DNA of 64,000 nt from Haloplanus rubicundus (GTDB taxonomy: Archaea > Halobacteriota > Halobacteria > Halobacteriales > Haloferacaceae): contig NZ_CP031148.1 in NCBI RefSeq assembly GCF_003342675.1, forward strand, positions 2,108,001-2,172,000. Direction: 5' to 3'. Below, piece by piece: positions 6,158 through 62,973 of the stretch (positions are counted from its first letter, which is position 1; every line of letters begins with the position of its first letter). The notes beneath the pieces were generated by a model, which saw nothing but the letters and a program-made list of their open reading frames with translations, made no database searches and was not told the origin of the DNA. The translations under genes were made by a program, and so were the position numbers.

Positions 6158-7038
6158 CGACGGTCACCGCCGAGAAGTACCACGGCACCGAGAACGACTT
6201 CCTCGTGCTGCCGGCGGACGCGCCGGTGCCGGACCGCGCGGCCTTCGCCCGCGTCCACTGCGACCGCGAGACGGGCGTGGGCGGCGAGCGAACCGGCGCC
6301 GACGGCGTGCTCTTTCTGGACCTCGACCCCACGGCGTCGCCCGTCCGGGTGACGATGACGCTCGTCCAGCCCGACGGCTCGACGGCCGAGATGTGTGGCA
6401 ACGGCGCGCGCGTCACCGCCGTCTGGGCCGCCCGCGAGACTGGCGCCCGCGAGGTATTGATCGAGACGCCCGCCGGCGACCGCCACGCCGTCGTGCAAAG
6501 CGAGGGCGTCACCGTCGAGATGGGGGTCCCGTCGTTCGACCCGGCGGACGTGCCCCTCGCCCACGACCACGACGGCCCACTGATCGAGGAGGCCGTCGAG
6601 GGCTTGCCCGTCACCGCCGTGAACACGGGCGTCCCCCACGCCGTCGCGTTCGTCGACGACGTGGACGCCGTGGACCTCGACGCCGTCGCGCCACCGGTCC
6701 GCCACGCCGAGGTGTTTCCGGATGGCGCGAACGTCACGCTCGCCTCGCGGGTCGAGGTGGGTGACGAGGCAACCGACGGCGCACCCGGCGACCCGGCCGC
6801 CTTCCGCCAGCGCACCTTCGAGCGCGGCGTCGAGGGCGAGACGCTGGCCTGCGGGACCGGTGCCGTCGCCGTCGTCGCCGCCGCGAAGCGCACCGGCCGC
6901 CTCGACACGGACGGCCCGGTCCGGGTGTCGCCGCCGGGCGGCGACCTCGTGATCGTCGTTCCCGACGACGGCCCGGCGACGCTCACCGGCCCCGTCGAAC
7001 GCGAGTTCGAGGTGGACCTGGAGGTCCTCGAGCCGTGA
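6154..7038 (+). CDS. dapF: Diaminopimelate epimerase
   Basis: DapF interconverts LL- and meso-diaminopimelate without a cofactor. Both catalytic cysteines are present: Cys81 in MCGNGAR and Cys233 in ACGTGA. The 294-residue length is normal for the family. It follows lysA with an ATGA overlap and precedes dapE with a GTGA overlap, so it should be made as part of the same mRNA. Confidence 0.93.
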   Translation: MTTVTAEKYHGTENDFLVLPADAPVPDRAAFARVHCDRETGVGGERTGADGVLFLDLDPTASPVRVTMTLVQPDGSTAEMCGNGARVTAVWAARETGAREVLIETPAGDRHAVVQSEGVTVEMGVPSFDPADVPLAHDHDGPLIEEAVEGLPVTAVNTGVPHAVAFVDDVDAVDLDAVAPPVRHAEVFPDGANVTLASRVEVGDEATDGAPGDPAAFRQRTFERGVEGETLACGTGAVAVVAAAKRTGRLDTDGPVRVSPPGGDLVIVVPDDGPATLTGPVEREFEVDLEVLEP

Positions 7039-8153
7039 GCGCCGCCTTCGACCCCGTCGACTTTCTCGATTCGGCCGTCCGCATCCAGTCCCACGAGGAC
7101 GTAACCGAGATGCGCGACTTTCTGGTCGAGACTCTCGCGGCCCACGGCGCCGACCCCGTCGTCGACGACGCGGGCAACACGCTCGCAACGACGGGGTCGG
7201 GCTCCCCCCACGTCGTCTGCAACACCCACATCGACACGGTGTCGCCGCACGTCCCCTACGACCGCGCGGACGGCGTGATCCACGGCCGCGGCTCCTGCGA
7301 CGCGAAGGGGCCGCTCGCGGCCATCCTGGCGGCCTTCCTCGGCTACGACGGCGACGCCGACGGCGGCCGCCTCTCGCTCGCCATTACGCCCGACGAGGAG
7401 GTGTACTCGACGGGGGCGGCGGCGCTCGACCTCTCCGTTCTGCCCACAATCGACTCCCCCACTGCCGACTACTACGTCGTCGGCGAACCCACCGGCCTCG
7501 ACGTGTGTACGGCCGCGAAGGGGCGCTTCGAGGGGACCGTTCACCTCACGGGGCGGAACGCCCACGCCGCCGAACCGGCGTCGGGGGTCAACGCCGTCGC
7601 CGCCGCCGAGGGCGCGCTGGCGGCGATTCGGACCTTCGACGCGGAGCGCGACCCCCACCCCGACCTCGGGTCGGCGACGCTGACGCCGACGGTGATCGCC
7701 GGCGGCGAGGCGACGAATCAGGTGCCCGCCGACTGTGCGATCACGGTCGACCGGCGGAGCGTCCCGCCGGAGACGGCCGAGGGCTTCGCGGCCGAACTCG
7801 AACGCGCCGTCGACGACGCCACGCCCGACCCCGTCGGCGTCGACTTCGTGCCCACCGAGCGCCCGACCCCGTTCCTCGAGGCGTTCGCGACGGACCCGGA
7901 CGCGCCGGTCGTCAGGCACCTGTCCGCGGCGGCCGACCGCGTCACCGACGGCGCGGCCGGCGCCGTGCGGCCCTTCACCGCCGCAACCGAGGCCTCCTAT
8001 TTCGCGCCGGCGCCGACCGTCGTGTTCGGTCCCGGCGTCCTCGCGGACGACGACGGCCCCGTCGCCCACGCCGACCGCGAGTACGTCCGCGTCGCCGAGG
8101 TGGAGCGCGCGGCGACGGCGCTGACCGAGGCACTCGACGCGCTGCTCGGCTGA
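7035..8153 (+). CDS. dapE: M20 peptidase, probable succinyl-diaminopimelate desuccinylase
   Basis: The 372-residue metallopeptidase most likely removes succinate from N-succinyl-LL-diaminopimelate. M20 signatures are visible: the zinc His and Asp in CNTHIDTVSPH, GRGSCDAKGPL, the catalytic Glu pair in TPDEEVYSTGAA, and a C-terminal zinc His region. M20 enzymes also deacylate other amino acids, so the substrate is inferred from its place as last gene of the operon. The start is GTG in the dapF stop. Its TGA stop is immediately followed by copy 1 of the 80-bp inverted-repeat element. A dedicated dapC aminotransferase is not in the operon. Confidence 0.88.
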   Translation: MSAAFDPVDFLDSAVRIQSHEDVTEMRDFLVETLAAHGADPVVDDAGNTLATTGSGSPHVVCNTHIDTVSPHVPYDRADGVIHGRGSCDAKGPLAAILAAFLGYDGDADGGRLSLAITPDEEVYSTGAAALDLSVLPTIDSPTADYYVVGEPTGLDVCTAAKGRFEGTVHLTGRNAHAAEPASGVNAVAAAEGALAAIRTFDAERDPHPDLGSATLTPTVIAGGEATNQVPADCAITVDRRSVPPETAEGFAAELERAVDDATPDPVGVDFVPTERPTPFLEAFATDPDAPVVRHLSAAADRVTDGAAGAVRPFTAATEASYFAPAPTVVFGPGVLADDDGPVAHADREYVRVAEVERAATALTEALDALLG

Positions 8154-8233
8154 TACGGTTTATTGTAAGTCATTACCGGTGGTTCGCCGGACCATCTCGG
8201 CGAACCACCGGTAAACAGTTACAATAAACCGTA
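8154..8233. repeat. 80-bp inverted-repeat element, copy 1
   Basis: This is an 80-base palindrome between two TGA triplets (8151-8153, the dapE stop, and 8234-8236). The outer arms TACGGTTTATTGTAA and TTACAATAAACCGTA are perfect complements. The inner arms are TACCGGTGGTTCGCCG and CGGCGAACCACCGGTA around a short loop. Five-base linkers between the arms do not pair and give the element an orientation; this copy is reversed relative to copies 2 and 3. It could be a non-autonomous mobile element, a terminator or an RNA structure. I know no named family for it. Confidence 0.9.
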
Positions 8234-8269
8234 TGAGGCTTTTTCCCGTCGGGGGCGCTGTACCGACCT

Positions 8270-59617: not shown

Positions 59618-60631
59618 CTAATCGTACGTGTGGAACTCGGTGGCCTGTTCGAGGAGTTCGTCCGGCATTCCGGGCACTTCGTCGCTTCGGACGGGGCCCT
59701 GTTCGGCGACGAGGTCGGGATCTCGCGGGAAATCCCGCAACGTCCAGTGGATCGAAATACCCGCTTTCGCGCCGTCTCCCAGCGCGATCGGCACCTGGTT
59801 GTGGCCGGGCGTGAGGTCGCCGACCGCGTAGACGCCGTCGACGCTCGTCCGGCCGTGGTCGTCTACCTCCACGGTCCCGTCGTCGTTCAGTTCACAGCCG
59901 AGGTCGGTCGCCAGTCCGTTGTTGTAGTCGGCCCCGTACAGCGCGAAGCCACCCTTGTACTCGCGGACGGCTCCATCTTCGAATTCCAGCGCCTTCAGCC
60001 ACCCGTCGCTCCCGTTCTGGACACCGGTCACGTCCTCGTGAATCACGTCGATCGGATGTGTTTCGAGCATCTCGTCGGTGTCGTCGCTCCACTCTGGCTC
60101 GTCACCTCGAGTCAGCAGGTCGACCTCGTCGGTGAAGTTGAGCAGGATTGCAGCGACGTGCGCCGCGCTCTCGCCGTATCCCATCACGTACACGGGCTCG
60201 TCCGCGAACATGTGTGCGTCACAGTGGAGGCAGTAGTGGAGTCCGCGACCGGTCCGAGGGAGCGGCGGGTCCGGTCGCACGTCGTTCATGCCCGTCGCCA
60301 GCGCGACCGCGTCGGCCACGTAGTCCACGTCGGTCCCACACAGACGGAACCGGTCGTCGTCGGTTCGGCCGGCCGATCCGATTCGATCAGAGAGTACCGT
60401 ACAGCCGTACCCCTCCAGTTGCTCCTTCCCGATCTGCAGGAGTTCCATTCCGCTCGTCTCTTCGGTCGTTCCGACGAGGTTGTGGACGTCTTTCATCATC
60501 GCTGCCCGGCCACCGCCGCGGTCGACGAGTGCTGTCTCGTGCCCGAGTCGCACGCTGTACAGTGCCGCCGAGAGCCCCGCTGGTCCGCCACCGACGACGA
60601 CGACTTCGTACTCTTGCTGGTCTACAGCCAT
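59618..60631 (-). CDS. Thioredoxin-reductase-like NAD(P)/FAD oxidoreductase
   Basis: The 337-residue protein has FAD-binding VVVVGGGPAGLSAALYSVR, the redox disulfide in HYCLHCDAH, a NAD(P)-binding region modified to VYVMGYGESAAHVAAI, and the second FAD motif VYAVGDLTPGHNQVPIALGDG. It resembles thioredoxin reductase but with CLHC instead of CATC, and it may reduce a different partner. The open frame upstream of ATG 60631 is non-coding-looking. Confidence 0.87.
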   Translation of the reverse strand: MAVDQQEYEVVVVGGGPAGLSAALYSVRLGHETALVDRGGGRAAMMKDVHNLVGTTEETSGMELLQIGKEQLEGYGCTVLSDRIGSAGRTDDDRFRLCGTDVDYVADAVALATGMNDVRPDPPLPRTGRGLHYCLHCDAHMFADEPVYVMGYGESAAHVAAILLNFTDEVDLLTRGDEPEWSDDTDEMLETHPIDVIHEDVTGVQNGSDGWLKALEFEDGAVREYKGGFALYGADYNNGLATDLGCELNDDGTVEVDDHGRTSVDGVYAVGDLTPGHNQVPIALGDGAKAGISIHWTLRDFPRDPDLVAEQGPVRSDEVPGMPDELLEQATEFHTYD

Positions 60632-60737
60632 ACGACGACCGTCGGTGGGGGAGCTAAACGTACTATCCCGAGTGTGTAGCGGCGTTAAACGCCCGCGCTT
60701 CGGTTTAATACACGTCTGTCGTACCGTACGCCGTCGC

Positions 60738-60959
60738 ATGGCCTCAATCATCGCTGGCTTGGCCGGTGGATTGCTCGCGACGATCGTCATGACCGCCGTA
60801 ATGATGATGCTAGGCGATGGCGGCTCACCGCCGACGGCTGCTCTCGTCGAGAAATTCGCTGGTGGCGAACCGAACGACCACGCCACGCCGGGAATGATCC
60901 TTCACATGGTCTACGCCGTCGTCCTCGTCGGGTTCCTGGGGGCCGGCATCCTCGCGTGA
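60738..60959 (+). CDS. Short membrane protein ending at the 80-bp element
   Basis: The 73-residue product has two hydrophobic helices (SIIAGLAGGLLATIVMTAVM and LHMVYAVVLVGFLGAGILA) around a polar loop with GGEPNDHATPGM. It resembles the start of longer four-helix haloarchaeal proteins, such as the one at 56412 in general style, so it could be cut short. Its TGA is the first flank of the 80-bp element copy 2, so the truncation, if real, may come from that insertion. Confidence 0.6.
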   Translation: MASIIAGLAGGLLATIVMTAVMMMLGDGGSPPTAALVEKFAGGEPNDHATPGMILHMVYAVVLVGFLGAGILA

Positions 60960-61039
60960 TACGGATTAGTGTAACTGTTTACCGGTGGTTCGCCGACCTG
61001 TCTTGGCGAACCACCGGTACTGACTTACAATAATCCGTA
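60960..61039. repeat. 80-bp inverted-repeat element, copy 2
   Basis: Exactly 80 bases between TGA 60957-60959 (stop of the small membrane gene) and TGA 61040-61042. Outer arms TACGGATTAGTGTAA and TTACAATAATCCGTA pair with one mismatch. Inner arms are TACCGGTGGTTCGCC and GGCGAACCACCGGTA. The linkers CTGTT and CTGAC match copy 3, so both point the same way. The change from GTT to GAT in one arm is matched in the other arm. Confidence 0.9.
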
Positions 61040-61090
61040 TGAATCACTGGATAGCATTGTAACCGATCACACCACAACCACACGAAACCA

Positions 61091-61654: not shown

Positions 61655-61681
61655 CTGCTCGATGAACTGCCGGTGACATAC

Positions 61682-62671
61682 ATGATGGATGATCGCGCCG
61701 TCGGTGCTGGGCACCTCGTCGCTGTACTCGGAGCGGGGATTCCGCTCGTCGCGCTTGGAACACTCGATGTCGGGACGGCTGGCTCGCTACTCACGAGTCT
61801 CCCGGTTCCCGCCGGGTTTCCAGTCGATCAGTTCCTCGCGCACTGGTGGGTGTTCCCCGCCTCGATCCTCTTTTCGATGATCGCGCTCTCCTCGGGCGTC
61901 TCGGGTGCCCTATTTTTCAGTCCCTTCTTCATTCTCGTCGTCGGCCTGTCGCCCGCACAGGCCATCGGCGCCGGGCTCATGACCGAGGTGTTCGGCATGG
62001 GAAACGGCCTCCTGAACTACGTCCGTCAGAACGTCGTCGACTACGCGACGGCGAAGTGGCTCCTACTCGGGGCCGTCCCGTCCATCGTCGTCGGGGCGCT
62101 CGCCGCGCACTACGTCCCGACGACGCTTCTCACGCTCGCCTTCGGCGTCGGTCTCCTCGGACTCGGTGGCTTCCTCGTCGTTCACGATCCGCCGGAGGCG
62201 TGTGTGCCCGGTGAGGAGGAAGGCGAGTTCCTCGAACGAAAGAACGCGGGCCGGGGTACGACGGTCGTCGAGGCGGCCGATGGCGAGACCTTCACTTACG
62301 ATACCTGCTGGCGACTGCCCGGAGTCATCCTGGCCACCGTCGGTGGGTTCGTCACGGGCCTCATCAGCGCCGGACTTCCCGAAATCACGACGACCCAGCT
62401 CATCGTCCGGTGTCGACTCCCACCTCGCGTGGCCATCGCGACGAGCGTGTTCGTCCTCGGTATTGCCGCCATGGCCGGCGCCATCGTCCACGCCCTCGCT
62501 GCGACACCCGTCTGGTACGTCGTAGCGTGGTCCATCCCCGGTGTCCTCATCGGTGGCACCATCGGGACCCGAATCGGTAAGTACCTCCCCAGCGACCTCA
62601 TGGAGTGGGCACTTGGGGTCGTGTTCGTCGGCGTCGGCCTGATCGTCCTCGGGAGCGAACTGCTGGTCTGA
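61682..62671 (+). CDS. TauE/SafE family sulfite or sulfonate permease
   Basis: The 329-residue protein has about eight membrane helices with a central cytoplasmic segment (residues 165-205, charged, with one Cys). SSGVSGALFFSPFFILVVGL and TGLISAGLPEITTTQLIVRC are the paired TauE motifs. The family moves sulfite, sulfoacetate or related anions. Upstream GTG 61673 is an alternative start. It starts 27 bases after the CMD gene and its stop is the flank of 80-bp element copy 3. Confidence 0.86.
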   Translation: MMDDRAVGAGHLVAVLGAGIPLVALGTLDVGTAGSLLTSLPVPAGFPVDQFLAHWWVFPASILFSMIALSSGVSGALFFSPFFILVVGLSPAQAIGAGLMTEVFGMGNGLLNYVRQNVVDYATAKWLLLGAVPSIVVGALAAHYVPTTLLTLAFGVGLLGLGGFLVVHDPPEACVPGEEEGEFLERKNAGRGTTVVEAADGETFTYDTCWRLPGVILATVGGFVTGLISAGLPEITTTQLIVRCRLPPRVAIATSVFVLGIAAMAGAIVHALAATPVWYVVAWSIPGVLIGGTIGTRIGKYLPSDLMEWALGVVFVGVGLIVLGSELLV

Positions 62672-62751
62672 TAGTGTTTATTGTAACTGTTTACCGGTGG
62701 TTCGCCGACCCGTTCTGGCGAACCACCGGTACTGACTTACAATGATCACTA
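62672..62751. repeat. 80-bp inverted-repeat element, copy 3
   Basis: Exactly 80 bases between TGA 62669-62671 (stop of the permease gene) and TGA 62752-62754. Outer arms begin TAGTG and end CACTA, where copies 1 and 2 have TACGG and CCGTA, so three positions changed on both arms together. Two inner positions of the outer stem are mismatched. The inner arms and linkers equal copy 2. The compensating changes show that pairing is kept by selection or by the way the element is copied. Confidence 0.9.
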
Positions 62752-62973
62752 TGACGGACGGTCGCCCGTCGTCGATTCTTGCGTGTGAGAACGGTCAATT
62801 CTCGTAGGTCGACACGGTACTTCGAGTAGCAGTCGGGTCGGTAACGGCTCCTTGTTCGGCACACAGACCGCGTATAGGCTACGTAGCTTTCCCGATCTCG
62901 GTGTACGAACAGGGGATCGACGGTTCACTCGCGCGGCGCAACCGTTAAGCCGCTGATAGTTTATCGATACGTC

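Follow-up and report, generated by a model that had tools for sequence, protein, structure and literature searches.

MITEs are short elements without coding capacity that have terminal inverted repeats, duplicate their target, and occur as many dispersed copies whose presence or absence varies between related genomes. Elements of the Tourist/PIF-Harbinger and IS5/IS1031 types generate a 3-bp duplication of the TNA type at the middle of a 9-bp palindromic target whose core resembles CTNAG. Placement at stop codons is not mentioned in a 2024 review of MITEs (PMC10969869). Among haloarchaea, the SMR-A and SMR-B elements of Haloquadratum walsbyi are ~80-110 bp long, have inverted repeats that are unrelated to known transposons, and have a mode of mobilisation that is described as unknown; reportedly, they do not duplicate their target and use other mobile elements as insertion sites (PMC3119063). 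Palindromic elements of the IS605 type are common in haloarchaea and also make no target duplication (PMC3119063).

Here, a palindromic repeat is described that occurs three times in a 64,000-nucleotide stretch of the Haloplanus rubicundus genome (the window; positions 2,108,001 to 2,172,000 of contig NZ_CP031148.1) and that is very probably a non-autonomous, MITE-like haloarchaeal mobile element of ~80 bp, inserting at TNA with a 3-bp duplication and accumulating as copies at stop codons. The three 80-bp near-palindromes lie exactly where the first-pass annotation had placed them, at 8154-8233 (copy 1, minus strand, with the B arm first on the plus strand), 60960-61039 (copy 2, plus strand) and 62672-62751 (copy 3, plus strand), and each has a TGA on either side, the first being the stop codon of a gene. 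For copy 1, this stop (8151-8153, plus strand) terminates a gene encoding an M20 family peptidase (DapE/ArgE-like; 7035-8153, plus strand; PF01546, 5.2e-24), and the second TGA is at 8234-8236 (plus strand). Copy 2, with outer arms at ~60960-60976 and ~61023-61039 and an inner hairpin at ~60981-61018, follows the stop codon (60957-60959, plus strand) of a small ORF (frame 60480-60959) that shows a coding signal in its last ~60 codons; its downstream TGA is at 61040-61042 (plus strand). The host gene of copy 3 encodes a TauE/SafE permease (61673-62671, plus strand; PF01925, 1.1e-32), with its stop codon at 62669-62671 and the downstream TGA at 62752-62754 (both plus strand). As had been proposed, the orientation of copy 1 is opposite to that of copies 2 and 3, which is apparent from two asymmetric motifs of the inner arms, AACTGT and AAGTCA. 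The ends read TACGG...CCGTA in copies 1 and 2 and TAGTG...CACTA in copy 3. The outer arm of copy 3 had been described as differing at three positions, all matched on the other side; counted against the bases common to copies 1 and 2, two differences are present in the left arm and three in the right; two pairs of changes stand, and the third change on the right is unpaired. As RNA, the window copies fold at -47 to -57 kcal/mol, 10-12.6 SD below shuffled sequences. No match to the element was obtained in Rfam 15 at the gathering score, a tRNA being the sole match in the window.

Across the genome, the arm pattern (with at most two mismatches) matched 87 + 81 times (168), compared to 3 + 3 (6) for a reversed control, and chance can therefore be excluded. 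A covariance model made from 27 oriented copies identified 85 distinct copies in the genome, all on the main chromosome contig. The oriented copies have a common outer arm, TACGGWTTAKTGTAA, and an inner hairpin, ACCGGTGGTTCGCC, and the part between arm and hairpin is asymmetric, with AACTGT on one side and AAGTCA on the other. The outer ~16 bp of the two terminal arms are near-identical, and the arms are imperfect overall. Further, the arms of these copies co-vary: compensated double changes exceed expectation outside the loop (e.g., at positions 3-4, 27, and 30), and two-sided changes are counted at 8 pairs by RNAalifold. This concerted variation may stem from founder lineages, from a single enzyme that both ends have to match, or from repair of the hairpin.

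Related palindromes are also present in this genome. A second family, 77-78 bp in length and of the form TACTGTCGGCTGT...ACAGCCGACAGTA, is represented by ~18 near-complete copies that mostly start exactly at stop codons (G000:C2, L400-L427; e.g., 352147-352230, the 1563043 region, and 2207209-2207292) and that also have the AACTGT/AAGTCA inner asymmetry. A third related family, with ends TAGGGATTATCGTAACTGTC, the inner hairpin AGATTCTCGCCGG, and an asymmetry of the AACTGT/AAGTCA type, was observed at three loci (L203, L205, and L208; G000:C2 ~805854, 620950, and 1051140). At G000:C2:577765-577897, the 80-bp element is nested in a TGA within a copy of the 78-bp family that itself starts at a stop codon. 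Additionally, a ~51-bp derivative (L204 2854-2905; G000:C2:2879854) has kept both ends and lost the inner hairpin through internal deletion, at a TGA...CGA site.

Mobility of the element is evident from orthologous sites in relatives. The joined flanks of 14 copies were used as queries in 11 same-genus genomes, and the sites were then aligned. For the 12 stop-codon sites examined, the aligned sites in relatives consisted of a single stop codon and no element, with clean single-TGA empty sites corresponding to positions 1536558, 2168957, 2170669, 1790719, 2362977, and 2994071. Window copy 2 (2168957) has a single TGA and no element in G001 and G006, where the flanks are 95-97% identical, and is occupied in G005; at the copy 3 site, G002 lacks the element and G005 has it; and copy 1 is empty in G005, where a single TGA stop is followed by diverged sequence. 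A copy that is not at a stop codon (712796) is likewise cleanly empty, in G009. Since the empty sites have one TGA and the occupied sites read TGA-80 bp-TGA, the element plus one triplet was inserted, and the second TGA is a 3-bp target duplication. Nearly every same-genus genome contains copies, from 15 to at least 74. It should be noted that the stop codon at G000:C2:1790719 (G006:C1:604755) holds elements of different sequence in two species and is empty in two others, a pattern of independent insertion or loss.

The duplicated triplet is not confined to TGA. Flanks are TGA/TGA or TCA/TCA and hardly ever TGA/TCA, and TAA/TAA pairs occur in the own genome (G000) and in G008 and G009 (e.g., 3203904, 1733597, L238, L261, and L268); the duplicated triplet therefore comes from the target and not from the element. 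Relative to unoccupied stops, occupied sites are enriched in G at positions -3 and +1 and in C at positions -1 and +3. The target logo at stop and non-stop sites has frequencies of 0.77-0.79 for C at -1, 0.59-0.64 for G at +1, 0.52-0.66 for G at -3, and 0.41-0.64 for C at +3. Because the same logo is seen at non-stop insertions in the named genomes, it characterises the target and not merely coding sequence. The target is thus approximately GAC-TSA-GTC, a 9-bp palindrome centred on the duplicated TNA. The downstream duplicated TGA was observed to change specifically to CGA with age, in 0 of 48 young versus 24 of 99 older copies (own genome, G006, G008, and G009), with the mirror change nearly absent.

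A strong bias of the copies toward stop codons was observed. In the own genome, 65 of the 85 copies (76%) are immediately flanked by the stop codon that closes the best coding frame, coding calls here being those of a simple codon model trained on this genome and not curated annotation. The upstream triplet at these 65 copies is TGA in 59, TAA in 5, and TAG in 1, and both orientations are used equally (34:31). Of the other copies, 11 lie at a TGA without this role and 9 have a decayed flank. By expectation, stops account for ~9% of non-coding TNA sites, or 15-18% when sites are weighted by the motif. The first-pass annotation had proposed a miniature mobile element with a 3-bp TGA duplication and a preference for stop codons, to be checked by a genome scan with tabulated flanking triplets and by comparison of empty sites in relatives. 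The genome-wide copies, their exact placement at stops, the mostly identical flanking triplets, and the largely empty orthologous sites, several with a single TGA, bear this proposal out, with the refinement that a TGA duplication at stop codons describes most copies and not all: the duplicated unit is TNA, the target is a longer palindrome, and some sites are not stops.

The stop fraction varies with age in part of the data. In four same-genus genomes, in which the age of a copy was taken as its divergence from the nearest sibling, the fraction at stops from youngest to oldest was 12/22, 19/26, 36/45, and 43/54 (young versus old, Fisher p 0.026), such that 55% of the youngest and ~80% of the older copies are at stops. 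No age gradient was detected in the wider set of named genomes, where about half of the copies listed are at stops throughout (23/44, 14/28, 10/16, and 8/16). Coding regions hold ~48% of motif-weighted targets, and copies within coding sequence number 1 of 147 in the genus set and 0 of the 104 listed in the named set (44 of these near-identical). Roughly a fifth to a half of copies are at TNA sites that are not stops, and many of these are 1-50 nt downstream of a stop. The target motif alone was rejected as the cause of stop placement, the motif-weighted 15-18% being lower than the fraction in even the youngest copies, and this shortfall also means that motif and purging together are not the whole explanation. 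The bias is probably in part survivorship on a target that is well fitted to stop codons, and a further preference for gene ends, beyond motif and survivorship, is likely.

In one alternative, a feature beyond sequence, such as translation or transcription termination complexes, R-loops, or a host factor, steers insertion to gene ends, making the choice of stops a property of the insertion machinery. The near absence of copies from coding sequence, the stop fraction of the youngest copies in the genus, and the many copies shortly downstream of a stop are each consistent with such steering; nevertheless, the target palindrome is the same at non-stop copies, an equivalent pattern would arise if gene-disrupting insertions were quickly lost, and in the genus set the share of copies at stops increases with age. 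Steering is viewed as somewhat improbable, and it is not the explanation that we favour.

That the repeats are instead RNA hairpins selected at 3' ends (a terminator, a 3' stabiliser, or a ribosome pausing element), with their placement due to host selection and not transposition, appears improbable. A very stable hairpin directly after a stop codon, arms that vary in concert, and the higher stop fraction among older copies of the genus set would all be expected of such a structure. Yet matching arms are also expected if both ends must fit one transposase, the two orientations are equally frequent, the hairpin comes with a second copy of the target triplet, most orthologous sites in same-genus genomes are empty, and no T tract follows the element (as checked behind copies 2 and 3). 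With its sites mostly empty in relatives and no T tract, the element is not a conserved terminator, and the first-pass suggestion of a selected 3'-end RNA structure maintained behind the same genes is not upheld. The repeat is very unlikely to be a REP/RAYT-like or PATE-like palindrome that an IS200/IS605-type HUH (Y1) transposase mobilises in single-stranded form, despite its hairpin architecture, the high copy number outside genes, and the abundance of IS605-type palindromes in haloarchaea, given that true terminal inverted repeats are present and that TGA and TAA targets are both duplicated, whereas IS605-type elements make no duplication (PMC3119063), and the corresponding model of the second TGA as the element's own part is ruled out by the TAA...TAA copies and the single-TGA empty sites.

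Under the favoured reading, that of a non-autonomous, MITE-like element, the duplication points to a DDE-type transposase that would act in trans and cut TNA with a 3-bp stagger in the middle of a 9-bp palindrome close to GAC-TSA-GTC, after which gap repair would duplicate the three bases. A gene whose final sense codon is, for instance, GAC and whose stop is TGA fits this target, and any TNA is a stop codon, TGA or TAA, when read on one of the two strands; after insertion at a stop codon, the gene therefore still ends at its own stop, ahead of the element. Copies that land within genes or promoters would presumably be lost, and copies at stop codons would accumulate as a result.

Candidates for the mobilising enzyme were sought in several ways. 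In the own genome, no longer element or transposase with these ends was found among end-like sequences (those with at most two mismatches fully listed, and some with three); the 10 regions that were read as potential autonomous partners were all copies, derivatives, solitary ends, or chance matches. In G006, a recently active genome in which six of the copies read are identical, a complete list of exact 18-base ends was drawn up and every unpaired one inspected; each of the seven proved to be an 80-bp copy, and no longer element was present. A 3.3-kb candidate in L352 was rejected since it encloses a redox enzyme and a membrane protein and no transposase, with translations judged by eye. The PF13359 and PF13340 domains (DDE_Tnp_4/DUF4096 type), which are typical of Tourist/PIF-Harbinger and IS5/IS1031 transposases, were detected in 0 of 60 genomes (the own genome and 59 relatives), and controls detected both elsewhere. 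Among plasmid matches, four regions that were read had no annotated transposase within ~3-4 kb.

Sequence-diverged relatives of the element, nearly all 77-80 bp in length, occur across Halobacteria, and 98 of 105 copies listed from named haloarchaea have identical flanking triplets. The named-species matches listed include Haloarcula, Halomicrobium, Halapricum, Natrialba, Natronorubrum, Natrarchaeobius, Halobiforma, Natronosalvus, Salinadaptatus, and Saliphagus, along with several MAGs; one MAG, QH_10_67_22, has young identical copies. Most other genera of the taxonomic family to which the window genome belongs have no copies. Element families with other arms and inner hairpins and with the same length, triplet flanks, and stop placement were found elsewhere in the order, in further genera and taxonomic families (G026, G040, G056, and G057). 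Plasmids also carry matches, the closest being in Haloplanus sp. GDY1; phage records had no match to the element, and viral contigs had none to the strict inner-hairpin pattern. A bolder and tentative proposal, which we consider somewhat improbable, is that these repeats form a palindromic superfamily of 77-80 bp across Halobacteria in which the insertion machinery is itself selective for stop codons and the 3' ends of genes, with a duplication that regenerates the stop and would render insertion harmless by design.

In the open literature, with subscription journals and IS databases outside the search, no stop-codon-inserting repeat and no named family with this habit was found to be described. 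With a target duplication that is the stop codon itself, the element is a clean example of a harmless insertion, and it accounts for hairpins that immediately follow haloarchaeal genes in hundreds of cases. Many unrelated mRNAs are followed by a strong hairpin of near-identical sequence, which could alter their 3' ends, a natural experiment that is open to RNA sequencing. Moreover, once the enzyme is identified, it could be learned whether transposases are able to recognise stop codons or gene ends in themselves.

Compared to known systems, the element does not match an intrinsic terminator, as no T run is present after copies 2 and 3 and orthologous sites are empty. REP/BIME sequences and haloarchaeal PATEs are likewise abundant hairpins outside genes and often near gene ends, but they lack a target duplication and depend on HUH chemistry, and PATEs lack terminal inverted repeats. 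SMR-A and SMR-B share the haloarchaeal host, short length, and inverted repeats, and are set apart, by their description and not by sequence, through the duplicated TNA and the position behind host genes seen here. The 3-bp TNA duplication within a palindromic target is shared with Tourist/PIF-Harbinger or IS1031-like elements, from which the repeat differs in its end sequences, in host domain, and in the absence of PF13359 and PF13340 from the 60 genomes. Like a MITE, it is short (80 bp) and non-coding, with terminal inverted repeats, 85 copies in the own genome, a target duplication, and insertion polymorphism; unlike a MITE, it is palindromic over almost its whole length and strongly placed at stop codons. 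No parental transposon with the same ends was found in the own genome or G006. Because it duplicates its target and SMRs and REP/PATE sequences do not, the element belongs to neither of those groups, and it works like a MITE.
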